This document shows, in pieces, positions 5,159 through 64,000 of a stretch of 64,000 bases of DNA; positions within the stretch are counted from its first letter, which is position 1; every line of letters begins with the position of its first letter. A program made the position numbers and the translations under genes. Below the pieces are notes generated by a model that searched no databases, was not told the origin of the DNA, and saw only the letters and a list, made by a program, of their open reading frames with translations. Source of the stretch: Sphingopyxis sp. HIX (GTDB taxonomy: Bacteria; Pseudomonadota; Alphaproteobacteria; Sphingomonadales; Sphingomonadaceae); assembly GCF_001468285.1 (NCBI RefSeq), contig NZ_LNSB01000001.1:1-64000 (forward strand), in the 5' to 3' direction.

Positions 5159-6386
5159 GGATTAAGTCCTTCCTGATGTCGTGCAGCGCCTGCGCGTCTG
5201 CAAGGAATTCATGCTTGTTGCGCGCGAGCGGCAGCCGCCGCGCGAGCGAGGAAAACAGGTTGCCGCCGGGCGGCAGATGTCGGTCGATCCAGCTATCGGT
5301 CGCCGCAGCATCGAGCCCCGCGGGCGCGTGCAGTCGGCGCGCGATCGCGGCGCGCAGGCTCGCAACATAGGAGTCGGCGCCCTCCAGCTCGCGATCGGCC
5401 TGCTTGATCAGGTCGGCGCTGTTCGCGATCAGCGCGGCTTTCGACACCGCGATCGCGCGCGCGGGTTTCAGCGCCGGGCCGAAGCGCGCCCATGCCTGCC
5501 ACAGCGCGAACAGCCCCGCCGCGATCAGGCACAGGGTGATGCCGATAAACGGCGGCACGAAGGCGAAGCGCAGCAGCGAGCGCCCGGCGCCCAGCCCGTT
5601 CAGCGTCACGTCGAAGGCGATGCTGTCGGCGTCGGCATCCTCGGCGATGCCGTCGATCAGCATCGCCGCGCCGCGCGCGCCATCGCGGCTGGCAAAGGCG
5701 AAATTGTTGATGAGGTCGGGGTCGGCGAGGATATAGACGTCGCGTTCGCGCGCCCGCGCCAGCACCGCGCCGCCGCCCGGCGCCGCGGCCAGCGTCTCGA
5801 TCGTGTCGCCCGACACCGTCTGGACGCCCTCGGGCAGCGACAGGCTGATCTCGCGCCCCGCGACCCATGCCGGGGCCTCCGCCGCCTGCCCCTTCGACGC
5901 CGCGATCGCGACCTTGCCAAAGGGCGCCTCGGGCAGCAGCTTCGCGGGCGGCGCGACCGGCGCGCCGACGCTGACCCAGCCGGGCTTGGTGTCGCTTCCC
6001 GGGATACGCATCGCCCGCCATTTGGGCAGCACGATCAGCACCGGTGCGCCCCCGGCGCTCGTCAGCAGTTCGGCGATTTCCTCGGCGCGCGTCTCGTGCG
6101 TCGGGGTCAGGACGATCAGCGGCTGATAATCGTCATAGGCATAGGTTTCGACGCCGCGCCGGATGTCGACGGTCGCCCCCGCGCGTTCGATCAGGTCGAC
6201 GATCCCGGCATAGCCCGGCGCGGCCTTCGACAGCGCATGGCCCTGGACGTTCTTGCCGGTGCTGAACTGCGGGCCGAGCGCGACCAGCGCCCACAGCGCG
6301 ATGAAGGCGATGATGCCGATCACCACGACGCCGGCCATCAGCCGCGGGTTGAAGGCGCTCTCGCCGTTCGCCGTGTCGCCGCTCAT
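5148..6386 (-). CDS. DUF4350 domain-containing membrane protein
   Basis: A 412-residue protein with an N-terminal span ([22 protein letters not shown]), a long extracytoplasmic or periplasmic segment carrying the DUF4350-like region, a second span near residues 275-300 ([20 protein letters not shown]) and a cytoplasmic tail. I chose the ATG at 6386 over an earlier in-frame start because it overlaps the TGA of the upstream gene (ATGA) and gives a sensible membrane N-terminus ([13 protein letters not shown]). In MoxR operons this protein usually lies between the DUF4129 and MoxR genes, as here. Its function is unknown. Confidence 0.85.
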
Positions 6387-7087
6387 GCCCGCGCCCAATT
6401 CTTCGGCACCGTCATCTCGGCATAGGCGGCGCGGCACTGCTCCCACGCGCCGGCGTCGATCGCGCGGCCGCCGAACAGGCTGATCTCGACCGCGCGCGCG
6501 ATGCGGCTGAACGCTTCGCGCGCGACCGCGGGCAGGTCGGTCGCTCCCGCCAGCTCGCGCGACGTCATCGCGGGCTTGACCAGCCCGGGGCGGCGGCCCT
6601 CGATATCCTCGACGCTGCGATAGAGCAGCAGGTGCGCCGCTTCGGCAAAGCGCCCCGCCGCCGCCAGCGCATCGGCTTCGGCGAGCAGCGCGCGCGCCGC
6701 GCCGGCCTCGGCCTGCCCGACCAGTTCCTCTTCATCCACCGCGCCGCGCTTGCGGCGCAGGCGCAGGTCGTCGACCCAGGTCGCGAAGGCGGGGACGAAC
6801 AGGTAAAGCAGCAGCAGCACCAGCGCGATGCCGGCGATCCACAGCAAGGGCTGCGCCGCGGGGGCGAGGAAGTCGAACAGGTTACGGATCCCGCGGCCGA
6901 TCGCCATCAGCCAGCCGGGAGTCTCGGGCACCGGCGGCGGGGGCGGGAAGGCGGTCTGGATCGTGTCGCCCGCCATCGTCTGGACATAGCCGGGATCGAC
7001 GAGTTCGGGGTCGACCAGCCAGCCTTCGCCGCCTTCGCGGGGCGTTTCGGCGGCGGCCGACGCCTGGGCGATCCACAGCGATATCAT
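6383..7087 (-). CDS. DUF4129 domain-containing protein
   Basis: A 234-residue protein that appears to be the first gene of the leftward MoxR operon. A signal-like N-terminus (MISLWIAQASAAAE) is followed by one clear membrane span (PLLWIAGIALVLLLLYLFVPAF, residues about 84-105) and a C-terminal DUF4129-like segment with the LLYRSVEDIEGRRPG and MTSREL motifs. DUF4129 modules are also found fused to transglutaminase domains, and the operon pairing with MoxR and DUF58 is well known. Its start faces away from the E1 dehydrogenase gene, leaving about 160 bases for two divergent promoters. I could not pick out convincing promoter boxes there. Confidence 0.82.
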   Translation of the reverse strand: MISLWIAQASAAAETPREGGEGWLVDPELVDPGYVQTMAGDTIQTAFPPPPPVPETPGWLMAIGRGIRNLFDFLAPAAQPLLWIAGIALVLLLLYLFVPAFATWVDDLRLRRKRGAVDEEELVGQAEAGAARALLAEADALAAAGRFAEAAHLLLYRSVEDIEGRRPGLVKPAMTSRELAGATDLPAVAREAFSRIARAVEISLFGGRAIDAGAWEQCRAAYAEMTVPKNWARA

Positions 7088-7251
7088 GTTGAAAAACTGG
7101 CCCAGCCCCGGATCGTCATCGCCGTTGGTGGTAGCGCGCCCGGCGGCGCAATGGCAAGAGATGCTTGCAAGCGCCAGCGCGCCATAATAGCGCGCCGCGG
7201 CGGGCGGGCCGATGGTTGCGCCTGCAACGAAGAGACGATGGGAGACACGGC

Positions 7252-9453
7252 GTGGACGCGGCTCAGGCGGTACATGAAAAATTCCTCGCCGCGCTGGCGG
7301 GCGGGCTGCTGCCCGACCGCGCCGACGCGCCCGATCCCGCGCTCGTCGGGCTTTCGCGCGCCGAGGCGACCGACATCTTCCTCTCGCAGCTGACCAGCCG
7401 CCAGATGGACCGGCTGTCGCGTCATCTCCAGGCGCGCGGCGAGGGCTTTTATACGATCGGCTCGTCGGGGCACGAGGGCAATGCCGCCGTCGCCGCGGCG
7501 CTCCGCGTTACCGACATGGCCTTCCTCCACTATCGCTCGAACGCCTTCCAGCTCCACCGCGCGCGCCAGCTTCCCGGCGAAAGCGCGACATGGGACATGC
7601 TGCTGAGCTTCGCCGCGTCGAGCGAGGACCCGATCTCGGGCGGCCGGCACAAGGTGATCGGATCGAAACCGCTCGCCATCCCGCCGCAGACCTCGACGAT
7701 CGCCTCGCACCTGCCCAAGGCGGTCGGCGCGGCCTTCTCGATCGGGATCGCGCGCCGGAACGGCATGAAGGACCTGCCGCTGCCCGACGATGCGGTGGTG
7801 CTCACCAGCTTCGGCGACGCCTCGGCGAATCATTCGACCGCGCAGGGCGCGTTCAATACCGCGGGCTGGGCGGCGTTCCAGGGCTCGCCGATGCCGCTCA
7901 TCTTCCTCTGCGAGGATAATGGCATCGGCATCTCGACGCGCACGCCGACGGGCTGGATCGAGGCGCAGTTCCGCCACCGCGCCGGGCTCCACTATATCCA
8001 GTGCGACGGCACCGACCTCGCCTCGGCCTATGCGGGGGCGAAGGAAGCCGCCGATTACGCCCGCCGCACGCGGAGGCCGGTGTTTCTCCATATGGCGACG
8101 GTGCGCCTCTACGGCCACGCCGGGTCGGACGTGCAGGGCGCCTATCTCCCCAAAGCGCTGATCGAATCGGACGAAGCGCGCGATCCCTTGCTCAAGGGCG
8201 CGGCGCTGATGGCAGGGCAGGGCTGGATGACCCCAGCCGAAATCGCAGAAACTTATGAGGACATCGGCGCCACCCTCGCGCGGCAGGCCGAGGCGGCGAT
8301 TCTACGCCCCAAGATCACGACGCCCGCGCATGTGATGGCGAGCCTCGTCCCGCCCAGGCGCGACGTGGTGCGCGCCAACACCCCCTCGGCCGAGGACCGC
8401 AAGGCGATGTTCGGCAGCGACGCGGGGCAGATGGACAAGCCGATGCACATGGCGCGCCTTTTGAGCTGGGCGCTCGCCGACCTGATGCTCGCGCACAAGG
8501 AAATCGCCGTCATGGGCGAGGATGTCGGACCCAAGGGCGGCGTCTACAACGTCACCGCGAAGCTGCATCAGCGCTTCGGCTCGTCGCGCGTGATCAACAC
8601 CCTGCTCGACGAGCAAGCGATCCTCGGGCTCGCGATCGGCATGGCGCATAACGGTTTCGTGCCGATGCCCGAGATCCAGTTCCTCGCTTATGTCCACAAT
8701 GCCGAGGACCAGATCCGCGGCGAGGCGGCGACGCTCAGCTTCTTCTCGAACGGCCAGTACACCAACCCCATGGTGATCCGCATCGCGGGGCTCGGCTATC
8801 AGAAGGGCTTCGGCGGCCATTTCCACAACGACAACAGCCTCGCGGTCTTCCGCGACATCCCCGGCGTCATCCTCGCCGTGCCGTCGAACGGGCGCGATGC
8901 CGTCGCGATGCTGCGCGAATGCGTGCGGCTGGCGCGCGAGGAACAGCGCGTGGTCGTCTTTGTCGAACCCATCGCGCTCTACATGACGCGCGACCTGCAC
9001 GAGGAGGGCGACGGCCTCTGGACCAGCGTCTATGAGGCGCCGGGCGAGGGCGCGCCGATCGGCTTCGGCGACGTCGGCGTCCATGGCGACGGGACGGATC
9101 TCGCGATCGTCACCTATGGCAACGGCACTTATCTCTCGCGCCAGGCCGAGAAATCGCTCGCCGCCGATGGGGTCAAGGCGCGCGTGATCGACCTGCGCTG
9201 GCTCGGCCCGGTCGATGAGGACAAGCTCGTCGCCGCGGTCGGCGATGCGAAGCGCATCCTGATCGTCGACGAATGCCGCATCACCGGCTCGCAGAGCGAG
9301 GCGCTGATGGCGACTTTCGTCGAACGCACCCCCGACAAGAAGGTCGCGCGGATCGCCGCCGACGACAGCTTCATCCCGCTCGGCCGCGCCGCGACGCTGA
9401 CGCTGCCGAGCCGCGACGGCATCTATGCTGCCGCGAAGGAGCTGCTCGCATGA
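7252..9453 (+). CDS. Fused alpha/beta 2-oxoacid dehydrogenase E1 (thiamine diphosphate-dependent)
   Basis: A 733-residue protein joining an E1 alpha-type domain (about 1-380) to an E1 beta-type, transketolase-like domain (about 395-733). The alpha half has the thiamine diphosphate motif beginning FGDASANHS and ending LCEDNGIG. The beta half has GEDVGPKGGVY and INTLLDEQAILGLAIG with the conserved glutamate. I place the start at GTG 7252, preceded by GGGAGA, because upstream in-frame codons give arginine-rich sequence. It would decarboxylate a 2-oxoacid, perhaps a branched-chain one. No E2 or E3 gene is in view. Instead the next gene overlaps as ATGA and encodes an acyltransferase. Confidence 0.9.
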   Translation: MDAAQAVHEKFLAALAGGLLPDRADAPDPALVGLSRAEATDIFLSQLTSRQMDRLSRHLQARGEGFYTIGSSGHEGNAAVAAALRVTDMAFLHYRSNAFQLHRARQLPGESATWDMLLSFAASSEDPISGGRHKVIGSKPLAIPPQTSTIASHLPKAVGAAFSIGIARRNGMKDLPLPDDAVVLTSFGDASANHSTAQGAFNTAGWAAFQGSPMPLIFLCEDNGIGISTRTPTGWIEAQFRHRAGLHYIQCDGTDLASAYAGAKEAADYARRTRRPVFLHMATVRLYGHAGSDVQGAYLPKALIESDEARDPLLKGAALMAGQGWMTPAEIAETYEDIGATLARQAEAAILRPKITTPAHVMASLVPPRRDVVRANTPSAEDRKAMFGSDAGQMDKPMHMARLLSWALADLMLAHKEIAVMGEDVGPKGGVYNVTAKLHQRFGSSRVINTLLDEQAILGLAIGMAHNGFVPMPEIQFLAYVHNAEDQIRGEAATLSFFSNGQYTNPMVIRIAGLGYQKGFGGHFHNDNSLAVFRDIPGVILAVPSNGRDAVAMLRECVRLAREEQRVVVFVEPIALYMTRDLHEEGDGLWTSVYEAPGEGAPIGFGDVGVHGDGTDLAIVTYGNGTYLSRQAEKSLAADGVKARVIDLRWLGPVDEDKLVAAVGDAKRILIVDECRITGSQSEALMATFVERTPDKKVARIAADDSFIPLGRAATLTLPSRDGIYAAAKELLA

Positions 9454-10496
9454 GCGCGAAGAAGACCGCGCTCGTCGTCGCGCCCGGCCGCGGCACCTAT
9501 GGCAAGGGCGAGCTCGGCAGCATCGCGCGGCTCCACGGCACGCGCTTCGCCGAGCTGATCGCGAACTTCGACGCGCAGCGCGCCGAGCGCAGCCAGCCGA
9601 CGGTGACCGAACTCGACGGCGCCGAGCGCTTCAGCGTCGCGACCCATATGCGCGGCGATGTCGCGGCACCGCTCATCTACACCGCCACCGCGCTCGACTG
9701 GCTCAGCATCGACCGCGAGAAATACGACATCGTCGCGGTCGCGGGCAATTCGATGGGCTGGTACAGCGCGCTCGCGCTCGGCGGCGCGGTGTCGGTCGCG
9801 GACGGCTTCCGCATTTCGAACGCGATGGGCCTCAACAGCCAGACCCATGGCCCCGGCGGGCAAATTCTGCTGCAGGTCGTCGACGAAGACTGGCGCCCCG
9901 TCCCCGGCCTTTGCGACCAACTGCTCGATCTCGTCGCAAATATCGATGCCCGCCCCGGCCACGACCTCGCGCTTTCGATCGATCTCGCCGGCATGCTCGT
10001 GCTCGCGGGCAATGAGGAAGGCCTTGCCGCCTTACTCGCCGGGGCCCCGCCAACCCCCGGCCGCGACCCGCTGCGCCTCGCCGGGCACGGTCCCTTCCAT
10101 ACCCCGCTGATGTTCGGCAGCTCGGACAAGGCCAAGGCCGAGCTCCCCGCCTCGCTCTTCTCCAGCCCCGCGATCCCGATGGTCGACGGCCGCGGCCATA
10201 TCTGGCGCCGCTTCGCGTCCGATCCCGCGCAGGTCTGGGACTACACCTTCGGCCACCAGATCCTCGCGCCCTACGACTTCGCGCTCTCGGTGCAGGTCGC
10301 GGTCAAGGAGTTCGCCCCCGACGTGATCATCCTGCCCGGCCCCGGCGACACATTGGGCGGCGCGATCGCGCAGTCGCTGATCGGGATCCAATGGCAGGGG
10401 ATCGCCGGCAAGGCCGACTTCATGGCGCGGCAGGCATCGGACCCGATCCTGCTCTCGATGGGCCGCGCCGAACAGCGCGCGCTCGTCGCGGCCTAA
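9450..10496 (+). CDS. ACP S-malonyltransferase-like acyltransferase
   Basis: A 348-residue protein resembling the FabD-type acyltransferase fold. The nucleophile elbow is GNSMGW (serine near residue 105), where FabD has GHSLG, and a likely catalytic histidine sits in GPFHTPLM. The Asn in place of His beside the serine is a departure from classical FabD. The start overlaps the E1 stop (ATGA), implying coupled translation and a joint role, perhaps moving an acyl group made by E1 onto a carrier. It is unlikely to be the housekeeping FabD, which normally sits with fabG and acpP. Confidence 0.75.
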   Translation: MSAKKTALVVAPGRGTYGKGELGSIARLHGTRFAELIANFDAQRAERSQPTVTELDGAERFSVATHMRGDVAAPLIYTATALDWLSIDREKYDIVAVAGNSMGWYSALALGGAVSVADGFRISNAMGLNSQTHGPGGQILLQVVDEDWRPVPGLCDQLLDLVANIDARPGHDLALSIDLAGMLVLAGNEEGLAALLAGAPPTPGRDPLRLAGHGPFHTPLMFGSSDKAKAELPASLFSSPAIPMVDGRGHIWRRFASDPAQVWDYTFGHQILAPYDFALSVQVAVKEFAPDVIILPGPGDTLGGAIAQSLIGIQWQGIAGKADFMARQASDPILLSMGRAEQRALVAA

Positions 10497-51985: not shown

Positions 51986-52079
51986 GGCGTGGCAAAGCCA
52001 CGCCGTCAGTCCCTGCTGCGCAGGGCTGGCCGAACTTTCGCTGATCGAGATTTGGCGTGGCTAAATCGCCGCGAAAGTT
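51986..52079. repeat. Cluster of hairpins before tRNA-Gly
   Basis: Three nested or adjacent inverted repeats fill the 98 bases between the transglutaminase stop and the tRNA: GGCGTGGC-AAA-GCCACGCC (51986-52004), CCCTGC with GCAGGG, and AACTTTCG (52033-52040) with CGAAAGTT (52072-52079). The last arm touches the tRNA 3' end. It resembles a repetitive extragenic palindrome and may also end the tRNA transcript. Confidence 0.55.
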
Positions 52080-52152
52080 GGAGCGGGTGAAGGGAATCGA
52101 ACCCTCGTCGTAAGCTTGGGAAGCTTCTGCTCTACCATTGAGCTACACCCGC
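52079..52152 (-). tRNA. tRNA-Gly (CCC)
   Basis: A complete 74-base tRNA on the minus strand with encoded CCA. The acceptor is GCGGGTG with CACCCGC, the D arm is GCTCAATGGTAGAGC, the T arm holds GGTTCGATTCC, and the anticodon loop UUCCCAA gives CCC, reading GGG codons. An integrase gene begins the island on the 5' side of this tRNA, which is unusual because elements normally sit at the 3' side. Confidence 0.95.
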
Positions 52153-52161
52153 ATTTCAAGG

Positions 52162-53586: not shown

Positions 53587-53612
53587 GTGTGCGTATATAC
53601 ACACAACGTTGT
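53587..53612. promoter_or_regulatory. Operator region between divergent integrase and regulator genes
   Basis: GTGTGCGTATATACACAC (53587-53604) is palindromic at 7 of 9 positions, and the perfect palindrome ACAACGTTGT (53603-53612) follows it directly. They fill most of the 44-base gap between divergent starts, so a bound repressor could shut both promoters, as in phage-type genetic switches. Confidence 0.55.
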
Positions 53613-53630
53613 CGATTGCAAGAGGGCATG

Positions 53631-54191
53631 ATGCGCGAACGAGTATTGCCAGAGAATCCATATCCATATGCCGACACCATCGCCGCCGACATGCTTAGAG
53701 CGGCGGTGCAGCGGGCAGGTGAGCAGCGCGGCTTATCGCTGCGACGTTTGGCCAAGGTGCTGGGCTACAAGCAAGCCACAGTCCTGAGCCACATGGCCAA
53801 TGGCCGCATACCGATCCCCTTGGAGCGCGCGACGGAAATCGCCGAGGCCGTTGACATGCCGGCAGCGGATTTCTTTCGCGCTGCGGTGGCTCAAAGAAAT
53901 CCGGCAGCAATGCGCCTCCTGGAGCCGCATGGGTCCGCGAGCCAGGAAGCAGGTGGGCACATGAATATGGCGACGCAGCTCGTCGAACTCGCCGGTAGCT
54001 CGCTTGACGACCTGAGTGAGGAGCAAAAGCAGGTGCTCCGAGAGGTGGCACTGGACAGAAATGCCGCCAGGAGATGGCTGTCGCCCGCCGAGATCCCGCT
54101 CATGCTGATGCTGCGACGGCTGCGACCGAGTCTCGGCCGCAACGGGCTGCAGCGCCACGAACTGTCGGCGATCGAGCGGGCCCTCTCGTAA
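53631..54191 (+). CDS. XRE-type helix-turn-helix regulator
   Basis: A 186-residue protein. Residues about 20-85 form a Cro/CI-like helix-turn-helix (RGLSLRRLAKVLGYKQATVL, SHMANGRIPIPLERATEIAEA). The C-terminal half is helical and acidic (SSLDDLSEEQKQVLREVAL), perhaps a dimerisation domain. ATG 53631 gives better spacing from AGAGGG than the adjacent ATG at 53628. It is divergent from the integrase pair and probably binds the palindromes at 53587-53612. It would be the immunity or switch regulator of the island. Confidence 0.82.
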   Translation: MRERVLPENPYPYADTIAADMLRAAVQRAGEQRGLSLRRLAKVLGYKQATVLSHMANGRIPIPLERATEIAEAVDMPAADFFRAAVAQRNPAAMRLLEPHGSASQEAGGHMNMATQLVELAGSSLDDLSEEQKQVLREVALDRNAARRWLSPAEIPLMLMLRRLRPSLGRNGLQRHELSAIERALS

Positions 54192-54196
54192 CCCAC

Positions 54197-54225
54197 TTGC
54201 ATGCGTGCTGATAAGCACGTATTAT
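54197..54225 (+). promoter_or_regulatory. Promoter with hairpin operator for a leaderless gene
   Basis: A -35 box TTGCAT (54197-54202), a 17-base spacer and a -10 box TATTAT (54220-54225). The spacer is the perfect inverted repeat CGTGCT-GATA-AGCACG (54204-54219). Six bases after the -10 box comes the ATG at 54232, where transcription itself should start, so the mRNA would be leaderless. Confidence 0.6.
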
Positions 54226-54231
54226 GTCCGT

Positions 54232-54699
54232 ATGAACGCACGCATCATCACGCCTGCGTCGCTACGAGGCGCCCATATCGATTTCCTGTCATCTGGCCGA
54301 TTTCCTCATGCTGTCACGCTGAACACCGACAGGGAGCTTACCGCGGCCAGACTTCGGTCGATTTTCGGCACCTTCTGTATGAATGTCGACCGCGTCACTC
54401 ACTCCAAGCAACGGGTCGATAAGATCCCCAGCCACCAGCGCTTTCTCGCGATCGCCTGGCCCGAGAACCTGACTACCAATGCCCATCTCCATGTGGCGGC
54501 AGATCTCAGAGCGTTCGAGGCGCGGGTCAGACGGGCCGATGCACCCACCCTCGAGCAGATATGGCATAAGGCCAGCCGCAGGGCAGGTAGCGTTTATGTA
54601 ACGCAAATGACCACGCAGGGATGGGCCGCATACATGACCAAGAAGGCTGAGCGGAGCGATCCGCTCTACTTCATCTCGACCGACTTCCACCCGAACTAG
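54232..54699 (+). CDS. Small HUH-endonuclease-like (Rep-type) protein
   Basis: A 155-residue protein. The metal-binding H-x-H is in NAHLHVAADL (His 85 and 87), preceded by a hydrophobic strand (RFLAIAWPENL). A candidate nucleophile Tyr 134 lies in AAYMTKKAERSD, a Y-x2-K-K arrangement, and the end FISTDFHPN resembles small Rep-like proteins of plasmids and phage satellites. HUH enzymes nick single-stranded DNA and start rolling-circle replication or transposition. There is no helicase domain. No ribosome-binding site precedes ATG 54232, consistent with a leaderless start; a GTG at 54205 lies inside the promoter. Confidence 0.65.
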   Translation: MNARIITPASLRGAHIDFLSSGRFPHAVTLNTDRELTAARLRSIFGTFCMNVDRVTHSKQRVDKIPSHQRFLAIAWPENLTTNAHLHVAADLRAFEARVRRADAPTLEQIWHKASRRAGSVYVTQMTTQGWAAYMTKKAERSDPLYFISTDFHPN

Positions 54700-54747
54700 A
54701 TCTTCATCTTCCATAGCCGCGGTGCCCCCTCTGGCAGCGGACCAAGG

Positions 54748-54984
54748 ATGCGACCGCCGGTCGTCCCCTCCTTACGCAGTTCCGTCTATATCGACTGCCA
54801 CCTCGCCCGCTCAGCAGGGCGGGCATTAGAAGAGATGTATCCAAGGGACACCGAGAAACCGCGGCAGTGGGAACAACGGGACCACCCACCATGGGAATAT
54901 GATCCCAATAGATTACCCACCCGCATCCATCAGCATGCTGGTTCAAAAGGTCTCTACACGATCAACAAGAGAGACCATGGATGA
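54748..54984 (+). CDS. Possible small protein coupled to the next gene
   Basis: A 78-residue reading frame in the 280-base gap after the HUH-like gene. Its TGA overlaps the ATG of the next gene (ATGA), which suggests translational coupling, and CCAAGG precedes its ATG. The product is charged, Trp- and Tyr-containing and without a recognisable motif. Coupling is the main support; homologues would be needed to confirm it. Confidence 0.35.
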   Translation: MRPPVVPSLRSSVYIDCHLARSAGRALEEMYPRDTEKPRQWEQRDHPPWEYDPNRLPTRIHQHAGSKGLYTINKRDHG

Positions 54985-55604
54985 ATATATATACCGCTCG
55001 CTTCCCCGAGATATCGGGTTACCTGACCATCATCGCTGATGCCGATATCAGGGCACGCCGTCTCGCCCTCGTCTGGTTCAGGCATCGCTTTCATCGCGAA
55101 CCCAGTGACATCGCGATCGATGCCAACAATACCGACTGGGAGCTCGGGGCACATACCCTCTCTCCTCGCGCCCGGCACGAAGGCATCGCTTATTGGCAGC
55201 GCGAACAAGGCTGGATTGTCGTCCCCCCGGATTTCGATGATCCTGGTGCCTACTATCGATCGCTACCGCGAGTCCTCTGCTACGAGTTCGTCACCAGTCG
55301 GGAAGACGCTCGGACGCTCATCTTTGCCCCGTCGAGGGCTAATGCAAATCTCGTCTTCGATACATGGAAGGAGCTTCACGGCCGGACGGAGGATCGTCTG
55401 TGGCGGGCAGAAGCAGGCATTATGCCGCCAACCACGCGCGATCGCCGAATGCGGCTGCGCACTGACCAGGCGCTCGGGTTCGTCGGCCTCGCTCGGTCTG
55501 GTATCGCGGGGTGGGAGGTCGTTCCGCCCTGGCACCCCTATGCCGGCGATTTCACGCAAGGCTCGTGGCAAGATTCCACTCGGTTTCCCGGCGACCTCAT
55601 CTGA
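54981..55604 (+). CDS. Uncharacterised protein between Rep-like gene and defence operon
   Basis: A 207-residue soluble protein that I do not recognise. It is Trp- and Arg-rich, with segments such as RALALVWFRHRF-like and WIVVPPDFDDPGAYY, and has no signal peptide, membrane span or zinc motif. It lies between mobile-element functions and the helicase operon and shares their strand. The 470 bases after it contain no good gene, so it probably belongs to the element rather than the helicase operon. It could be a packaging, immunity or defence accessory protein, but nothing in the sequence decides this. Confidence 0.6.
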   Translation: MNIYTARFPEISGYLTIIADADIRARRLALVWFRHRFHREPSDIAIDANNTDWELGAHTLSPRARHEGIAYWQREQGWIVVPPDFDDPGAYYRSLPRVLCYEFVTSREDARTLIFAPSRANANLVFDTWKELHGRTEDRLWRAEAGIMPPTTRDRRMRLRTDQALGFVGLARSGIAGWEVVPPWHPYAGDFTQGSWQDSTRFPGDLI

Positions 55605-56074: not shown

Positions 56075-59000
56075 ATGAATGTCTTTGATCTCGATAATGA
56101 CCTTATCACACGCTACGAACAGTTTGCACGTTCGTTCACCGACATCCGCAGCCCCGATCTCAAGCAGCAGATCGACTCGATATATGACAGCAAGATATTT
56201 TGGCCCGAACCGCTAATCGGGCTCAATCCGCGCTATCGCGTGGGCGGGTCGGTAGCCACGATTGGCGGCGATCCAGAGCTAGCGAATGTATTCTCGCTCG
56301 GGTGGCCGCGCACGCCCATCACTCTGCATCGTCACCAGGAGCAGGCATTTCATAAGGCAAAGCTATCAAAGAACTATATAGTTACCACCGGCACTGGCTC
56401 GGGCAAGTCGCTGTGTTTCTTCGTGCCAATCATCGATCGGATCTTGCAAGCGCGCCGCGCAAGAGAAACGCGGCGGACACGAGCGATCATCATATACCCA
56501 ATGAATGCTCTTGCGAATTCGCAGCTCGAAGAACTCGACAAGTTCATCGGCGGAAGCGATCTGGCTGACAACCTCAAACCGACATTCAAACGCTACACCG
56601 GGCAGGAGAATGAATCAGAGCGCCGCGAGGTGGCTGCCAATCCACCAGATATCATTCTGACCAATTTTATGATGCTCGAGTTGCTCATGACGCGCCAGGA
56701 CGATCTCGATCGACAGGTCATCGACCACATGCGAGGGCTAGAATTTCTTGTCCTGGACGAGCTTCATACCTACCGCGGGCGGCAAGGCGCGGACGTCGCG
56801 ATGCTGGTGCGCCGCGTGCGCGAACGAATGGGCTCGTCCGACATGCTGTGCATCGGCACCTCGGCGACAATGTCGTCGGGTGAAGCGGATGGCGGTCGTG
56901 AGACTGTGGCCCGCGTTGGCACGATGTTGTTCGGCAGCTCGGTGTTGCCCGACGACGTAATTACCGAAACGCTTGACCGCGCGACCGAGTGGAGCGGCAG
57001 CGAATCGTCGTTTATTGCTGCGTTGGCCCAAGCGGTGACAAACCCAACCGCCGAGAGCGAGTGGCGCACCGATGCGCTAGCGGTATGGATCGAACTCAAC
57101 ATTGGGTTGGATGCCGATGAGACGTTGAAACGCCGCACGCCGCGAACGCTGACCGACGCGGCTGCGGATCTCGCAGAATTGACCGGACTTAAAGTCGCAC
57201 TCTGCGCTGAGGCGCTCCGTCGCCGGCTGGTCGCAATGAGCACCCCGGGGCCTGGCAGCGACAGCGCCTTCATGGCGTTCAAGCTGCACCGCTTCCTTGC
57301 GGGCGCCGGGCATGCACATGCGACCCTGGAGCCCGCGGGAGTGCGCCGCGTTCAACTCGCCGCCGAACAGTTCGATCGCGAGACGCCGCAAGCACGCCTC
57401 TATCCGCTCTTCTTCTGCCGCCAGTGCGGACAGGAAGTCCATAGCGTCTCGGTGACACGCTCGGGGCAAGTGCTCCCCCGTTCGATCGACCAGACCGCGA
57501 AGGATGAGGCCGATCATGACGGCAGTCGTCACGGCTTTATGGTCCCCGATGCCAGCGGCGATCTGAATTTCGACGGAGGCATCGAGGGCTATCCCGACGA
57601 TTGGATAGAGGAGAGCAAAAATGGCCGACGCCTGAAGTCGAGCCACCGGGACAAACACGAAGCAGATCGGCTCACGCTCGGCTCCGATGGCCAAGCTTCG
57701 ACCGAGGGTGTCACGGTGTGGTTCTTTCCAGGCCGCTTCCGCTTCTGTCCACATTGCGGTTATCAGCCGGCTGCGCAGGCGCGCGATATCAACAAACTTG
57801 CCAGCTTGTCGGCAGAGGGGCGCAGTTCGGCGACGACACTGATAACGGCAGCGGCGCTTGACTGGATGGAACAGCAGAATAGCCCAAGTGACCGGTATCG
57901 GCGCAAGCTGCTCGGTTTCACCGACAATCGCCAAGACGCGGCGCTTCAGTCTGGCCATTTCAATGACTTCGTTTTCGTAACGTTGCTGCGCTCAGCAATG
58001 CTGAAGGCGGTCCGACAAGCAGGCGTAGAAGGACTGGCCCACGAGCAGTTCGGGGACGCACTGCGCCAGGCACTCGGCTTCGATCCTGCGTTTGTCACGC
58101 GGAGAGAAGAATGGATGGCGAACCCGGAACCGAAAGGGTTCGCGGCGCTCGACGAGGCGAAGCGCGCCATTAATCAGGTGCTGGCCCACCGGCTGTGGAA
58201 TGATCTAAGGCGTGGCTGGCGCTACACTAATCCCAACCTCAACCAACTCGCTCTGATCGAGGTGCATTATCCTGGGGTTCCGATGCTTTCTTCCGATGAG
58301 GAGGAGTGTGGACGCCACCCGCATCTCGCTGCCGCGTCACCGGAGAAGCGAGCTGAATTATTTCGCGGCTTATTCGATACGATGCGGCAAGGATTGGCAA
58401 TTCAAGTTGATGCGCTGGACCGCACCGCATTGGAGCAAGTCGCGCAGCGGTCTCGCGAGCACGTGAAGGCGCCCTGGTCTATCTCCCGCGAGGAAGAGGA
58501 GCGCGATCTCGCAAGGCAGGGCACGCTTGTCGTTGGCAAACCCGACGGCCGGATAGATCCTGGCACGATCAAGGCTTCGGCGCAGAGTGCACTCGGTCGC
58601 GCGCTGGATAGGACCTTGAAACAAGGCGGACTCGGCGGCGTGCCGGCGAAAGAGCGCGAACCGTTGATCCAAGCGATGCTCGAGGCAGCCGAGGCGCACC
58701 AAATCGTGCGCCGTGTGGGCCAAGGCGGCTGGCGCCTCGCCCCCGGAGCAGTTCGGCTGCATCCGGGCGACGGCAATGCCGAAGCCGGTCAAGACAATCG
58801 TTTCTTCTCCGGTCTTTACGCCGACGTCGCGGAACGGCTGGCGGAGAGCGGAAGACTACCCTTCGCTTTCGAAGGGCGTGAGCATACTGCGCAGGTGGAC
58901 ATCAAAACGCGCCAATGGCGGGAAGATCGTTTCCGCTATGGCGAGCCTGACAAGAAACGTATCAACGAGCAGCGTCATGAGATGATCGAGGGGGGCGAGC

Positions 59001-61144
59001 GCACCGATTTCTTGCCGCTCATGTTCTGTTCTCCAACGATGGAGCTGGGTGTCGATATCTCGCAGCTCAACCTCGTGTTCTTGCGCAACGCACCTCCCAC
59101 CCCTGCCAATTACGCTCAGCGAGCGGGGCGCGCCGGCCGGAGTGGACAGGCGGCGCTGGTTGTGACCTATTGTGCTGCACAGAGCCCGCACGACCAATAT
59201 TATTTCCAACGGCGTGAGGCGCTGGTGGCGGGTGTCGTAAAGGCGCCCGCAATCGATCTGGTCAATCCTGACCTGCTGGCAAGTCATGTCCAGGCGGAGT
59301 GGCTGGCGAGCGTCACCGAGCCGATCGGCACCGCCATTCCAGATAATTTGCAGATGGACGAGGAGGGGCATCCGATCGCGGGCTGTCTGCAGCCGGCGCT
59401 CGCCGCAGCTACCGGCAACGATACTGCGCGGGCACGAGCGATTGCAGTAGTGCGGTCTGCGCTGCCCAAAGAACCGCCGGAGGAGCTTGCAGATGCCGCG
59501 GGTTTCGTAAATGCGCTCTGGGCCGGTGCCCACACCGCCTTTGATACGGCATTCGAACGCTGGCGCACACTCTACCGCTCCGCAGTTGCTGAACGCCAGG
59601 CAGCCAATGCGATCGCCGAACGCACCGGCCTTTCTGCAAAGGATCGTGCTGAAGCCCGCAGTCGCTATCTCGCGGCCGATCGCCAAGTGCAGCTGCTCGA
59701 GACCGGCACCAGTTCGTCGGGCTCTGACTTCTACACCTATCGCTATCTCGCGACCGAAGGCTTCCTGCCTGGCTACAATTTCCCACGACTACCGCTCTAT
59801 GCCTTTATCGATCAACAGAAAGCGTCGGCGGTTCTGCAGCGGCCGCGCTTCCTTGCGATAGCGGAGTTCGGACCCAATGCGCTCGTCTACCACGAGGGCA
59901 AGGCCTATCGCTGCCACCGTGCCAAGTTGCCGGCAGGATCGCTCGACGATCAACAACGGCTCGCGACCCAAACCTTCACTTGCTGTCAGAAATGCGGCGC
60001 AGCGCACGAAGAGGTGACGCAGGAGCGTTGCGCGGTGTGCGGCGATCCGCTGAGTAGCGAGGGGCGGATCGCCGAACTCTTTCGGGTGGAGAACGTCGAT
60101 GCACAACCTGGCGCACGGATCACCGCCAATGACGAGGATCGTCAACGCCGCGGGTTTGAAATACGAACAGTATTTCGCTGGCGCAAAACGGGTTCTGGCG
60201 ATCAACAGCTATCGCTGATCGGTGATGGCGCCCCCCTTTTGGAAGCGCGCTACGGTCCGCAGACGCGCCTGTCACGGGTAAACCTCGGCCTGCGCCGGCG
60301 GGCAGAACCCAATCATTTCGGCTTCGACATCGACACCGTGACGGGACGCTGGCTAAAAAATGAAGCCAAGGGTGAGGAAGAAGGGGCGGATCCGGTCAAG
60401 GGCACGCGCCGCCAGACCATCGTCCCGATGGTTGAAGATACCAAAAATGCCCTTCTCGTTCGCTTCGACGACGGCCTCGCCCTCTCCGCGGCGCAAATGG
60501 CTACCCTCCAGCATGTATTGGTCCGAGCCATCGAGGCCGAGCATGTCTTGGAAGCAGGCGAGCTGCTCGGCGAACCGCTACCCACTCGTGATGAACGCAA
60601 CGCACTTCTTCTCTACGAAGCATCCGAAGGAGGTGCCGGGGTGCTAAAGCGGCTCGTGGAAGACGCCGGGTGCTGGCAGCGGCTTGCCGAAGTAGCGTTG
60701 GAATTGATGCATCTGCATCGCGAGGACGGCGTATTGGTCGATGACCCGACGGCCGAACCCTGTGTAGCCGGCTGCTATCGCTGCATCCTCTCCTATTACA
60801 ACCAACCCGACCACCTGCTGATCGACCGTCGCGACACGGATGTGCATGCCGTTCTGGATCGCATGACGCGAAGCGAGATCGGCGCTACAACGCACAGCGA
60901 TGCGGGATCGTGGCCGAAAGCGCTGGCAGCGTGGAACGTCCCCGTCCCGTCCGTCGAAACGATCGACGGCACCCCTTATCCTTTGTGTTGGCCGGACATG
61001 ATGGTGATGGCAGTGACCGGCGCGCCGCCATCTTCTTTGATCGCGCGGTGCCTTGACTGGGGGCGTGACCTGATCGAATTGCCAGCCGTGCCGCCTCCGG
61101 CCATCCCGCCGGCGCTCGCCAAAGCACTCGGAATTTTCGTATGA
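56075..61144 (+). CDS. Giant DEAD/DEAH helicase with DUF1998-like C-terminus (DISARM/Druantia-type)
   Basis: A 1689-residue protein. The N-terminal helicase half has Walker A TGTGSGKSLCFF (about 105-114), a DE-L-H box in VLDELHTYRGRQGADVAML (about 227) and GTSATMSSGE. Motif VI, APPTPANYAQRAGRAGRSGQ, comes late (about 1010), after a long insert. Zinc-type cysteine clusters occur near 445 (FFCRQCGQE), 560 (FCPHCGYQ), 1305-1325 (CCQKCG and CAVCGDPL) and 1563-1572 (CVAGCYRC). The C-terminus (LLLYEASEGGAGVLKRL, then CYRCILSYYN) is DUF1998-like. DISARM splits these parts into DrmA and DrmB; Druantia DruE joins them. The stop overlaps the next gene by 4 bases. Confidence 0.9.
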   Translation: MNVFDLDNDLITRYEQFARSFTDIRSPDLKQQIDSIYDSKIFWPEPLIGLNPRYRVGGSVATIGGDPELANVFSLGWPRTPITLHRHQEQAFHKAKLSKNYIVTTGTGSGKSLCFFVPIIDRILQARRARETRRTRAIIIYPMNALANSQLEELDKFIGGSDLADNLKPTFKRYTGQENESERREVAANPPDIILTNFMMLELLMTRQDDLDRQVIDHMRGLEFLVLDELHTYRGRQGADVAMLVRRVRERMGSSDMLCIGTSATMSSGEADGGRETVARVGTMLFGSSVLPDDVITETLDRATEWSGSESSFIAALAQAVTNPTAESEWRTDALAVWIELNIGLDADETLKRRTPRTLTDAAADLAELTGLKVALCAEALRRRLVAMSTPGPGSDSAFMAFKLHRFLAGAGHAHATLEPAGVRRVQLAAEQFDRETPQARLYPLFFCRQCGQEVHSVSVTRSGQVLPRSIDQTAKDEADHDGSRHGFMVPDASGDLNFDGGIEGYPDDWIEESKNGRRLKSSHRDKHEADRLTLGSDGQASTEGVTVWFFPGRFRFCPHCGYQPAAQARDINKLASLSAEGRSSATTLITAAALDWMEQQNSPSDRYRRKLLGFTDNRQDAALQSGHFNDFVFVTLLRSAMLKAVRQAGVEGLAHEQFGDALRQALGFDPAFVTRREEWMANPEPKGFAALDEAKRAINQVLAHRLWNDLRRGWRYTNPNLNQLALIEVHYPGVPMLSSDEEECGRHPHLAAASPEKRAELFRGLFDTMRQGLAIQVDALDRTALEQVAQRSREHVKAPWSISREEEERDLARQGTLVVGKPDGRIDPGTIKASAQSALGRALDRTLKQGGLGGVPAKEREPLIQAMLEAAEAHQIVRRVGQGGWRLAPGAVRLHPGDGNAEAGQDNRFFSGLYADVAERLAESGRLPFAFEGREHTAQVDIKTRQWREDRFRYGEPDKKRINEQRHEMIEGGERTDFLPLMFCSPTMELGVDISQLNLVFLRNAPPTPANYAQRAGRAGRSGQAALVVTYCAAQSPHDQYYFQRREALVAGVVKAPAIDLVNPDLLASHVQAEWLASVTEPIGTAIPDNLQMDEEGHPIAGCLQPALAAATGNDTARARAIAVVRSALPKEPPEELADAAGFVNALWAGAHTAFDTAFERWRTLYRSAVAERQAANAIAERTGLSAKDRAEARSRYLAADRQVQLLETGTSSSGSDFYTYRYLATEGFLPGYNFPRLPLYAFIDQQKASAVLQRPRFLAIAEFGPNALVYHEGKAYRCHRAKLPAGSLDDQQRLATQTFTCCQKCGAAHEEVTQERCAVCGDPLSSEGRIAELFRVENVDAQPGARITANDEDRQRRGFEIRTVFRWRKTGSGDQQLSLIGDGAPLLEARYGPQTRLSRVNLGLRRRAEPNHFGFDIDTVTGRWLKNEAKGEEEGADPVKGTRRQTIVPMVEDTKNALLVRFDDGLALSAAQMATLQHVLVRAIEAEHVLEAGELLGEPLPTRDERNALLLYEASEGGAGVLKRLVEDAGCWQRLAEVALELMHLHREDGVLVDDPTAEPCVAGCYRCILSYYNQPDHLLIDRRDTDVHAVLDRMTRSEIGATTHSDAGSWPKALAAWNVPVPSVETIDGTPYPLCWPDMMVMAVTGAPPSSLIARCLDWGRDLIELPAVPPPAIPPALAKALGIFV

Positions 61145-63900
61145 CCCCCTCGCAACTTCAAACCGGGGACCTGGTGACTGCGCGGGGACGCGAGTGGATC
61201 GTGGTGAGCAAGCCAGGCGAAGGTCTTGTCCGCGTGCGACCGCTTTCAGGGTCGGAAGAGGATGCAATCACATTTGCACCGGCTCTCGAAGCCGTGCCGA
61301 TGTCTAGCGCGGCGTTCGCGTTGCCGGCTGCCGAGCAAAGCGACACACAGGACGCAGCCCGTCTGCTGGCCGATGCCTTGCGGCTGTCACTCCGCCGCGG
61401 TGCCGGGCCGTTCCGCAGCGCCGCCCACCTTGGTGTCGAACCCCGCGCTTACCAACTGGTGCCGCTCCTGATGGCGCTTCGGCAAGAGGTGAAGCGGCTC
61501 CTCATTGCGGACGACGTAGGCATCGGCAAAACGGTCGAGGCCGGCATGATCCTGCGCGAGATCATGGATCGTGGCGAAGTCGATCGCTTCACCGTGCTCT
61601 GCCCTCCTCATCTGGTCGAGCAATGGGTCGAGGAGTTAGCGACCAAGTTCGACATCGACGCTGTCGCAGTAACTTCGGCGCGCGCGCGTTCGCTTGAGCG
61701 GGGGTTGGCGGTCTCGGAGAGCATCTTCACCGCCTATTCGGCGACCGTCGTCAGTCTCGATTACATAAAGGCCGAGGGGCGCCGCGCGGAGTTTGCGCGG
61801 GCATGCCCTCCGTTCGTAATCGTCGACGAGGCGCACACTTGCGTTGGCGGGGGCGAAGGCGGAACGCAGCAGCGCTATGCGTTGCTCCGCGAACTGGCCG
61901 ATGACCCGACCCGGCATCTTCTGTTGCTCACAGCAACGCCGCATAGCGGCGATCAGGAAGCCTATCAGCGACTCCTTGGGTTGCTCGATCCCACGCTCGC
62001 CGTGCCCGACACAGGTGAAGCCTGGCGCAGACGACTGGCCCGGCATTTCGTTCAGCGGCGCCGGCCCGACATTCAGGACGGCTGGGGCGAGGCTCGTGCC
62101 TTCGCCAAAGCGCAAACCGCCGAGCTCCCCTACCAACTGACAGGGGCGCATCAGCGTTTTCAGGAAGACGTGCTCGATTACTGTGTCGGCGTCGCCACCC
62201 GCGCCGACGGCGAGCGAGCCCGCCGATTGGCATTCTGGGGCACTCTGGCCTTGATGCGCTGCGTAGGCTCTTCCCCGGCGGCGGCGGCGAGTGCGCTTCG
62301 CAACCGATTGGGCGGCATGGCTGAAGAAGACGTGCTCGAACCGATGCTCCTCGATGAGGACGAAGGCACATTCAGCGACACCGACGTTGAGCCTGCTACC
62401 GCAATCGACGCGGAAGAACGTGCCGCGCTGGATGCCTTGATCGTCCAAGCCGATGCGCTTGCCGCGGCGCCGGAGAATGATCCCAAAATGCGCGCCTTGA
62501 TCAAGGAAGCGAAGGCCCTGATTGCCAAGGGCGCGCGGCCGGTGGTCTTTTGCCGTTTCATCTCGACCGCCGATGCGGTCGGCGAGGCGCTCAGGTCAGC
62601 GTTCAAAAAGCACGACGTTCAGGTCGTGACGGGGCGGCGGACGCCCGAGGAACGACGTGCTCGCGTCGAAGCGATGGTGGATAGCGATCAACGAATCCTG
62701 GTCGCCACCGACTGCCTATCCGAAGGCATCAACCTCCAGATGCTGTTCGATGCCGTCATCCACTACGACCTCAATTGGAACCCGACCCGCCATCAGCAGC
62801 GCGAAGGACGGGTCGACCGCTTCGGCCAACAATCGCCGACGGTTTGGGCGGTCATGATGTTTGGCGAGAATTCGATGATCGACGGCGCGGTTATCGAGGT
62901 CATCACCAACAAGGCAAAGCGCATTCGCGAGGCGACGGGGGTCACCGTGCCGGTGCCCGAAGACAGCGCCAGCGTTACCAGCGCGCTGATGCAGGCAATG
63001 CTGCTCCGATCGAACAGTCCGCGCGCGCAGGGAGCCTTCGATTTCGGCGGCGCTACGACCGACGTGGAGACGATATGGCGCGATGCCGAGGAAAATATGA
63101 AGCGGAGCCGCGCAATCTTTGCCCAGAATGCCCTGAAACCCGAGGAGGTGCTCCCCGAATGGCAGCGTCTTCGCGCCCTCAACGGCGGCCCTGCCGAGGT
63201 CGAGCGGTTTACACGCCGCGCGCTGTCGCGCCTCAACGCCGCACTGGGGCAGGACGGGAATTATTGGCGTCTGCATTATGACCGCCTCCCGCAACGTGTG
63301 GGCGAGCGGCTTGCCGCACGCGGCCTTACCGGCGCCCGCGCGATCAGCTTCGCCGACATGCCGCCGCCCGATGTCGCGCACGTCGGGCGCGTCCATCCCC
63401 TCGTCGCGATGCTGGCCGAGACGATGGCGGAAGGCGCGCTCGATCCCGGCGGAGTCGATGGCGAAGCTCCGCTGGGGCGCGCCGGCGCGTGGCGGACGCG
63501 CGGCGTTGCTAAGCTCACCACGGTGCTGCTCCTGCGACTGCGCTTCACGCTGGTGACCAGCGGACGGCGCACGCTGCTGGCCGAAGAAGCGACCGCGCTG
63601 GCGTTCGATCCCGATGGAGAGGCAGTAAGCGGCGCGGATGCGTTGGCGCTGCTCGAACTGGAGGCTTCGGGCAACCTCGATCCCTCCGTCATCGCGCGTC
63701 AGGTGGAAGCCGCGCGCGGACGCGTCGCGGGCTATCAATCCGCGATCCGCGCCTATGCCGACGAACGCGCGGCAGCGCTCCGCGAGGACCACGACCGGGT
63801 GAAGGCCGCGACCCGCGGCGAAGGCGCGACGACCGAGGTCGCACCCGTGCTGCCCGCCGACGTGATCGGTCTCTATGTCCTCGTGCCGGAGGCGAACTGA
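61141..63900 (+). CDS. SNF2-family helicase, DrmD-like
   Basis: A 919-residue superfamily 2 helicase. A small N-terminal SH3-like region (LQTGDLVTARGREWIVV) precedes the SNF2 core: Walker A ADDVGIGKTVEAGMI (about 123-137), DEAH in VIVDEAHTCVG (about 226), LLTATPHSGD, VVFCRFISTADAV, and motif VI HQQREGRVDRFGQ (about 550). The C-terminal 300 residues are helical. Architecture and length match DrmD of class 1 DISARM and related stand-alone SNF2 helicases. It starts as ATGA over the upstream helicase stop and its own stop overlaps the next start by one base, so the three genes are made together. Confidence 0.88.
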   Translation: MTPSQLQTGDLVTARGREWIVVSKPGEGLVRVRPLSGSEEDAITFAPALEAVPMSSAAFALPAAEQSDTQDAARLLADALRLSLRRGAGPFRSAAHLGVEPRAYQLVPLLMALRQEVKRLLIADDVGIGKTVEAGMILREIMDRGEVDRFTVLCPPHLVEQWVEELATKFDIDAVAVTSARARSLERGLAVSESIFTAYSATVVSLDYIKAEGRRAEFARACPPFVIVDEAHTCVGGGEGGTQQRYALLRELADDPTRHLLLLTATPHSGDQEAYQRLLGLLDPTLAVPDTGEAWRRRLARHFVQRRRPDIQDGWGEARAFAKAQTAELPYQLTGAHQRFQEDVLDYCVGVATRADGERARRLAFWGTLALMRCVGSSPAAAASALRNRLGGMAEEDVLEPMLLDEDEGTFSDTDVEPATAIDAEERAALDALIVQADALAAAPENDPKMRALIKEAKALIAKGARPVVFCRFISTADAVGEALRSAFKKHDVQVVTGRRTPEERRARVEAMVDSDQRILVATDCLSEGINLQMLFDAVIHYDLNWNPTRHQQREGRVDRFGQQSPTVWAVMMFGENSMIDGAVIEVITNKAKRIREATGVTVPVPEDSASVTSALMQAMLLRSNSPRAQGAFDFGGATTDVETIWRDAEENMKRSRAIFAQNALKPEEVLPEWQRLRALNGGPAEVERFTRRALSRLNAALGQDGNYWRLHYDRLPQRVGERLAARGLTGARAISFADMPPPDVAHVGRVHPLVAMLAETMAEGALDPGGVDGEAPLGRAGAWRTRGVAKLTTVLLLRLRFTLVTSGRRTLLAEEATALAFDPDGEAVSGADALALLELEASGNLDPSVIARQVEAARGRVAGYQSAIRAYADERAAALREDHDRVKAATRGEGATTEVAPVLPADVIGLYVLVPEAN

Positions 63901-64000
63901 TGGCCCGGCATTTGAGGAAGGCGGCCGAACTCGGCCTCGACGCGATCACCATTGAAGGCGGGCTGATCGCGCCTGAACAGGTCGCTGCCATCGCAGGCGC
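63900..64000 (+). CDS. Third gene of the defence operon, N-terminus only; possibly a DNA methyltransferase
   Basis: Thirty-three codons (MARHLRKAAELGLDAITIEG, then GLIAPEQVAAIAG) before the right edge. The ATG overlaps the TGA of the DrmD-like gene by one base. The I-x-I-E-G-G-L-I-x-P beginning recalls the N-terminus of large Eco57I-type adenine methyltransferases that follow such helicases, but no catalytic motif is in view. The methyltransferase call is inference from context and a short resemblance only. Confidence 0.45.
   Translation, partial: MARHLRKAAELGLDAITIEGGLIAPEQVAAIAG

Follow-up and report, generated by a model that had tools for sequence, protein, structure and literature searches.

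We analysed a stretch of 64,000 nucleotides (nt) from Sphingopyxis sp. HIX, here called the window, which corresponds to positions 1–64000 of the 304,085-base contig NZ_LNSB01000001.1, and concentrated on a candidate defence operon at its right end; the contig sequence to the right of position 64000 was read as well. As listed in Table 1, the operon consists of five genes, all on the forward strand, and each junction is either an overlap or a gap of 3 nt. An initial annotation of the window had described three genes overlapping by 1–4 bases, in agreement with the 4-nt overlap of genes 1 and 2 and the 1-nt overlap of genes 2 and 3. The remainder of its description was also confirmed: the first gene, of 1689 residues, joins a DEAD core to a DUF1998-like end, the second is an SNF2 helicase, and the third begins at the edge of the window. 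Reading beyond this edge, we found an adenine methyltransferase gene, followed by an LmuB-like gene and an HNH_2 gene.

Table 1. Features of the operon and of its surroundings (aa, amino acids; ORF, open reading frame)
Feature	Position	Strand	Basis or remark
Gene 1, YprA/DruE-like SF2 helicase with MZB (DUF1998) domain, 1689 aa	56075–61144	+	ORF, PADLOC, Pfam
Degenerate Vsr-type domain, gene 1 C-terminus (last 135 residues and stop)	60737–61144	+	Profile-profile alignment, motif loss
Gene 2, BrxHII/RapA/DrmD-like SNF2 helicase, 919 aa	61141–63900	+	ORF, PADLOC, Pfam, NCBIfam
Gene 3, Eco57I/PglX/DrmMI-like N6-adenine methyltransferase, 1500 aa, with C-terminal extension of ~165 aa	contig 63900–68402	+	
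Portion of gene 3 inside the window	63900–64000	+	Start of frame; rest beyond right edge
Gene 4, LmuB-like SMC/Rad50-type ATPase, 644 aa	contig 68380–70314, outside window	+	TTG start
Gene 5, HNH_2 endonuclease, 258 aa	contig 70318–71094, outside window	+	Pfam HNH_2 7e-13
tRNA-Gly (ccc), likely integration target	52079–52152	-	ARAGORN
Left 47-bp direct repeat, attachment-site-like, in 5' part of tRNA-Gly	52107–52153	.	Exact copy
Right 47-bp repeat copy	contig 84911–84957, outside window		Beside tRNA-Thr
Tyrosine recombinase (integrase), 371 aa	52301–53416	-	Pfam Phage_integrase 7.9e-15; PHROG integrase 2.5e-29

Gene 1 contains the Pfam domains DEAD (residues 86–268), Helicase_C (950–1024) and MZB (1478–1571), the last being a DUF1998-type zinc domain. 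Among its best 25 PADLOC matches listed, the top profiles were DruE models, matched in part (DruE1, 275.6 bits). Gene 2 combines SNF2-rel_dom (107–304) with Helicase_C (450–562), and the best 25 PADLOC matches listed for it include DpdE (PDLC02853, full-length, 598.7 bits), DrmD (261.4 bits), BrxHI (2.9e-64) and BrxHII (1e-56). In NCBIfam, its scores for DrmD (311 bits, cut-off 610), DpdE (205.7, cut-off 500) and RapA (2.3e-35) all fell below the respective cut-offs. The initial annotation had seen a DruE-like helicase beside a DrmD-like SNF2 helicase, and the PADLOC profiles bear this out. Gene 3 matched Pfam Eco57I and N6_Mtase above cut-off; its closest profiles were DrmMI, type IIG and PglX, and the NCBIfam model of BREX-2 PglX (4.7e-18) was matched below cut-off.

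Relatives of gene 1 aligned at 36–65% identity (n = 12) and those of gene 2 at 41–74% (n = 12), and a match to gene 1, partial in some cases, was present in 110 of the 114 loci holding gene 2 (98 retrieved with gene 2 and 15 with gene 1, plus the window itself). The two genes are therefore not neighbours by chance. In the close relative Sphingopyxis terrae (L016) the SNF2 protein is 83% identical, and the fetched contig cuts off the beginning of the helicase. In a sample of the phylum, a gene 1 homologue (E up to 1e-60) occurred in 14 of 398 genomes, among them that of the window. An order of YprA helicase, BrxHII/RapA-like helicase and PglX-like methylase has been described as ARMADA Type I (Bell et al., bioRxiv 2025, PMC12458937). 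The window carries a YprA helicase with DUF1998/MZB, a BrxHII/RapA-like SNF2 helicase and a PglX-like methylase in this same order on the forward strand, and by sequence we assign its three-gene core to ARMADA Type I. The class was thus already described, and the hybrid or little-described class of the initial annotation was not supported: according to the literature, one defined subtype takes in the whole core, and it is only genes 4 and 5 that fall outside it.

Fused nuclease domain and HNH gene

We collected 168 loci, and relatives from plasmids were aligned. Removal of two duplicates (L035, L119), of L186, of 9 of the 12 loci on viral contigs and of 5 loci without the helicase C-terminus left 151 loci. 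Another 11, in which genes 2 and 3 were not found downstream (some on cut contigs), were then set aside, as were 29 in which the sequence available past the methyltransferase was too short. In each of the 111 loci kept, genes 2 and 3 lie downstream, and gene 3 is followed by an HNH gene or by at least 4 kb of sequence. Nuclease states (intact, lost or partly intact) were assigned by pattern, except that L173 was set to partly intact by eye.

The C-terminus of YprA in ARMADA Types I and II has been reported as a Vsr-type nuclease, predicted to be active (PMC12458937). In aligned relatives, intact copies show a DF.Y motif followed by (V/I)DG..H; the C-terminus of the window's gene 1 has neither the two acidic residues nor the histidine of this pattern, and the pattern is missing from its clade as well. 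Pfam DUF559 was matched by all 15 of the chosen intact C-termini (E up to 0.1), three of which also matched Vsr weakly (best 0.022), and neither family was matched at this threshold by any of 15 chosen lost C-termini or by the window's own. As profiles, two groups of lost C-termini still aligned to the intact domain (hhalign 99.2%, and 97.5% for the window's group). A profile search with the intact domain against the PDB gave weak matches to endonuclease-like proteins (best 0.036). These results indicate that the fused Vsr/DUF559 nuclease is degenerate and has lost its predicted active site, so that the active nuclease typical of ARMADA Type I is missing from the window's gene 1. The active-site motifs of genes 1–3 (helicase, ATPase, methylase) were retained in 77–80 of the 81 lost loci; the operons are therefore not simply decaying, and as far as tested the predicted decay is limited to the C-terminal nuclease domain.

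We then found a difference between these loci in the presence of an HNH gene, which occurred in 79 of the 81 loci with a lost nuclease, compared with 5 of the 27 intact and none of the 3 partly intact loci. In three loci (L061, L076, L092) it lies just beyond the end of the fetched sequence and was counted as present. All five intact loci with HNH (L059, L060, L061, L068, L076) belong to one beta-proteobacterial clade, outside of which HNH was found in none of 21 intact loci. Searches through the whole of 28 genomes or records (E up to 1e-8), 25 holding an intact copy and 3 a partly intact one, detected no HNH homologue on the ARMADA contig; 3 homologues were present on other contigs (2.9e-16 to 3.7e-22). 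In L051, an intact locus lacking an HNH gene nearby, a weak homologue was detected at another place in the genome. A strict HNH pattern was matched by 67 of 79 HNH frames, and H, N and D residues are conserved in the alignment of the gene 5 family (n = 18). Among the HNH loci that have no LmuB-like gene, 44 were measured, and in 20 of these no more than 250 nt separate the HNH frame from that of the methyltransferase. In BREX-related Type-1 BR systems in which the nuclease fused to the helicase is missing, nearby nucleases including HNH have been called compensatory (PMC12839542). By analogy of gene content, HNH may be a replacement for the lost Vsr nuclease here. It could also have been gained when the nuclease was still active, with the nuclease decaying later, which would fit the beta-proteobacterial clade. 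A strict swap, with HNH only where Vsr is lost, was rejected, as five loci carry both.

LmuB-like gene and methyltransferase extension

Gene 4 had no Pfam match and was recognized by PADLOC as LmuB (1.8e-15); one LmuB profile was matched by 24 of its 25 relatives. It carries the sequence CPTCG, and a CxxC motif is present in that region in 27 of 48 frames of the family. LmuB has been described as a protein of about 650 aa, in many cases with a CPxCG zinc hook (PMC10586767). The predicted structure of a gene 4 relative had a pLDDT (predicted local distance difference test) of 88, and its best VIA-align match was 9a6c, a YydD-YydB model (Z 31.2), followed by LmuB-type chains (26.4–21.6) and Rad50/SMC heads (about 21); these fold matches have a large root-mean-square deviation (rmsd) and involve coiled coils. 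The sequence profile gave unspecific, coiled-coil matches in the PDB, with the LmuB-type chain 9ny5_D at 5e-4. The LmuB SMC-like ATPase of Lamassu is thus represented in the operon by gene 4, on the basis of the profile and of the fold of a relative.

The presence of this gene was accompanied by a longer methyltransferase. In all 40 determinable loci with an LmuB-like gene, the methyltransferase extends 145–221 residues past the end of the common core, compared with an extension of at least 145 residues in 1 of 67 loci without the gene; the other 66 have 41 residues or fewer. The extension is defined here by length, not by sequence. The sole exception to the rule is L162 (8377–13848), in which a tail of 457 residues was observed in a locus without an LmuB-like gene. 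No tail length was assigned to L154, L168, L170 and L180. The first three of these have the LmuB-like gene, together with a methylase too divergent for the measurement; counted from a common model point, L168 and L170 have 666 and 701 residues, respectively, and L180, which has no such gene, has 498. A sequence profile of the extension matched no locus without an LmuB-like gene.

On the tree, at least 22 gains or losses of the LmuB-like gene are needed, and in 20 of 20 independent contrasts the extension went with the gene (sign test, p about 2e-6, FastTree only). When the pairings were drawn at random, all 20 contrasts agreed in 197 of 200 draws, and 19 agreed, with one tie, in the other 3. 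In a close pair of loci, L032 and L039, one cassette has been replaced. It is bordered on one side by a methylase stretch that is 92% identical between the two loci over 301 nt, and on the other by the HNH gene, which is 93% identical over 768 nt; the cassette is a 282-aa frame in one locus, and the extension with the LmuB-like gene in the other.

The fold of the extension was predicted from a 29-row alignment with L018 as row 1, in which row L064 represents an incorrect part of a split methyltransferase; the extension of L018 reached a pLDDT of 91.3. Its top rows in VIA-align were 9ny5_C (Z 6.7, rmsd 4.3, 126 residues aligned), 9hqu_D (Z 6.7, rmsd 4.0, 121 aligned) and 9uxh_D (Z 6.2, rmsd 4.8, 132 aligned). 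All three are Lamassu entries and cover 121–132 of the 177 residues of the extension. We take these Lamassu chains of 164–171 residues to be LmuC, judging from their size and from 9ny5_D, a DUF3732 protein which we take to be LmuB. Since 9ny5 and 9uxh share the sequence of the DUF3732 protein, they are likely to represent one system. Unrelated winged helices in the next rows aligned over 67–81 residues, those at Z 5.8 over 71–81, and MukE/MukF chains reached Z 5.0. As a sequence profile, the extension found only unlikely matches in the PDB (ETV6 fusions, best 6e-5). The predicted fold thus suggests a moderate resemblance of the extension to LmuC, with Lamassu chains as the best matches.

Candidate mechanism and alternative readings

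The gene content, the domain decay, the association with HNH and the co-occurrence of extension and LmuB-like gene are direct results. We consider it probable that the operon is a variant of ARMADA Type I, carried on a tRNA-Gly island, in which the nuclease function has shifted to HNH and an LmuB-like unit is docked on the methyltransferase. The PglX-like adenine methyltransferase would presumably mark host DNA as self, judging from its family, and would report the absence of such marks. The LmuB-like ATPase may dock on it via the LmuC-like C-terminal extension and could sense phage DNA ends or structures. The YprA helicase and the SNF2 translocase would track unmarked DNA, and the HNH_2 endonuclease would most likely do the cutting in place of the degenerate fused nuclease. 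In our estimate the chances are about even that ARMADA and Lamassu have formed a true chimera, in which the LmuC-like domain and the LmuB-type gene form a cassette, repeatedly gained or lost at the place where the methyltransferase core is followed by the HNH gene.

Several observations weigh against this variant reading. All lost rows except L010 fall within one clade of 90 in the 147-row tree; in a first, smaller tree they had formed two groups plus L010. Vsr loss therefore amounts to about one event with one independent pair, and the Vsr-HNH link is not statistically provable; this contrast was run before the states of L061 and L076 were corrected. The trees have FastTree support only, with long branches flagged, and contain only relatives of the window's gene 1. 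HNH is not strictly a replacement, because the beta-proteobacterial clade has it next to an intact Vsr. Two lost loci, L006 and L160, have no HNH gene nearby: in L006, IS21 genes follow the methylase and no HNH homologue was found on its plasmid, and the L160 genome has a homologue at a distance of about 32 kb, downstream and in the same orientation, which was left out of the HNH count. The LmuB and HNH modules are separable, because each occurs without the other (LmuB-like gene without HNH in 5 intact loci, HNH without LmuB in 46 loci). In the first set, the extension profile detected 41 loci, many of which had served to build it, and missed L074 and L115; in the second set only L146 of 9 LmuB-bearing loci exceeded 20 bits. 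Foldseek gave nothing significant for the extension, its first match being 9ny5_C of LmuABC (E 0.67). In VIA-align, in which rows within 1 Z count as tied, winged helices were tied with the Lamassu chains, and a Z below 8 may reflect a common arrangement only, so that the match of the extension to LmuC is moderate. In PADLOC, in which the presence of an LmuC model was not checked, none of the 29 extension sequences matched a Lamassu subunit up to E 1.

Two simpler explanations deserve attention. The extension might be a winged-helix domain of the usual kind, serving DNA binding or specificity and travelling with the SMC gene without being a homologue of LmuC, as the Foldseek value, the tied generic winged helices and the divergence of the extension (29% mean column identity, with most LmuB-bearing loci of the second set missed by its profile) would allow. 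We regard this as rather doubtful, as the three top VIA-align rows are all Lamassu chains, aligned over most of the domain, and the gene accompanying the extension is LmuB-like by both profile and fold. Alternatively, the operon could be a plain ARMADA Type I with hitch-hiking HNH and LmuB-like defence genes, its nuclease unneeded and decayed by drift. The slot behind the methyltransferase does hold varied genes in other loci, and the loss of Vsr happened about once. This reading nevertheless appears unlikely, as HNH is retained in nearly all lost loci, which come from several classes, and is often placed within 250 nt of the methyltransferase where no LmuB-like gene intervenes, and as all contrasts pair the LmuB-like gene with a core gene that is extended in frame.

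Membership in another known system was much less probable. The profile matches to DruE and DrmD are what speaks for a DISARM/Druantia hybrid, as initially proposed. However, the DruE match is partial, NCBIfam DrmD stays below its cut-off, and DrmB, DrmC and DruF, DruG, DruH and DruM were not found among the matches listed for the five genes (PADLOC best 25 for genes 1–3), the genes downstream of the window included. Together with the core forming a described class of its own, this makes the hybrid very improbable, and it was rejected on account of missing genes and sub-threshold profiles. The initial annotation was right that the layout is standard for neither DISARM nor Druantia, the defining genes being missing among these listed matches. 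Least probable of all is a Dpd-type system. Gene 2 does score highest in PADLOC as DpdE, over the full length of PDLC02853, but its NCBIfam DpdE score reaches less than half of the cut-off and in PADLOC a Dpd protein is the best match of none of the other four genes. This reading too was rejected because genes are missing and profiles stay below threshold.

If the variant reading is true, the LmuB-LmuC sensor module of Lamassu would be pluggable, via one fused domain, into the methyltransferase of another family, and if the chimera is true, an SMC sensor would become part of a methylation-based defence. The natural cassette series, with the L032/L039 pair among its many gene changes, makes the role of the SMC unit directly testable. 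Likewise, ARMADA I lineages with a dead-looking fused nuclease and a retained HNH gene make the DNA cutter of ARMADA testable by single-residue mutation.

Island context and comparison with known systems

The operon is predicted to be carried on an integrase island of about 32.8 kb at tRNA-Gly, in line with the island suspected in the initial annotation; the integrase adjoins the left repeat copy. Four relatives hold the right flank and in none was the left flank found beside it, so that no empty integration site was found and the boundaries of the island are set from the 47-bp repeat and the integrase. ARMADA has been found on integrase islands in tRNA genes (PMC12458937). Between integrase and operon (53589–55604) lie an HTH (helix-turn-helix) regulator and two proteins of unknown family. 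Past the operon and within the repeats, contig 73153–80000 holds three tandem Abhydrolase_10 genes, a TetR regulator and a TonB-dependent receptor (plug domain); the annotation of the island covers the contig up to 80000.

Other loci showed further variation in this neighbourhood. UvrD-like, GmrSD, AAA_15/DUF3696, Schlafen-type, HD and reverse-transcriptase genes occupy the variable slot behind the methyltransferase, for example in L005 (19329–22028), L019 (16057–18069), L081 (16550–17995) and L095 (18112–20166), which carry UvrD-like, GmrSD_N, AAA_15/DUF3696 or Schlafen-AlbA_2 genes, and the slot may merit mining for accessory defence genes. Pairs with EVE-domain/DUF2357 or McrB/McrC-type genes follow ARMADA I in L012 (19800–25356), L126 (26073–29982) and L013 (21561–25498), and McrBC has been associated with a DISARM-like system (PMC11090510). 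On the Nocardioides plasmid of L126, an annotated DISARM drmA and a DrmB-family gene (3685–9581) lie upstream of the ARMADA I operon.

According to PMC12458937, ARMADA is a missing link between DISARM and Druantia; the proteins named there as references include WP_108720193.1 for ARMADA I and WP_000937974.1 for ARMADA II. Class 1 DISARM shares the SNF2 helicase, the adenine methylase and the YprA-type helicase with the window operon. However, its defining set includes a separate DrmB and the PLD nuclease DrmC (PMC12458937), whereas MZB is fused to the helicase in the window operon. Druantia III shares the long YprA helicase with DUF1998 (DruE). The Druantia sets combine DruE with DruH or with DruM, DruF and DruG (PMC13192584), whereas the window operon, with no DruH among its listed matches, has a methylase and an SNF2 helicase. 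The BREX-related Type-1 BR systems differ in their DUF499 ATPase core, and the word YprA does not occur in PMC12839542. Lamassu (LmuACB) resembles the window operon in placing an SMC-like ATPase beside a small subunit; LmuC is its middle component and HNH is listed among its LmuA effector types (PMC10586767). In the window, however, the LmuC-like part is the extension of the methyltransferase, and no LmuA was among the 3 families matched by gene 5 or the best 25 of the 45 families matched by gene 3.

ARMADA Type II, which protected E. coli without killing of cells and needed all four of its genes (PMC12458937), shares three of its four protein families with the window operon. In contrast to the latter, its first gene is that of the SNF2 helicase and its last encodes a fusion of a GajB-like helicase to RelE; this fusion is absent from the window operon, in which genes 4 and 5 encode the SMC-like ATPase and HNH_2. 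In the literature searched, we found no ARMADA I with HNH, LmuB or the methylase extension, although the supplements of PMC12458937 may list such genes; its main text contains HNH once, in a reference, and neither SMC nor Lamassu. The three-gene class is known in print, and the HNH gene, the LmuB-like gene and the methylase extension are additions with respect to that main text. Collectively, the window operon shares with ARMADA Type I the core genes, their order and the predicted integrase island at a tRNA gene, and differs from it in that the Vsr domain, predicted active in the published description, appears degenerate, and in that HNH and LmuB-like genes have been added.

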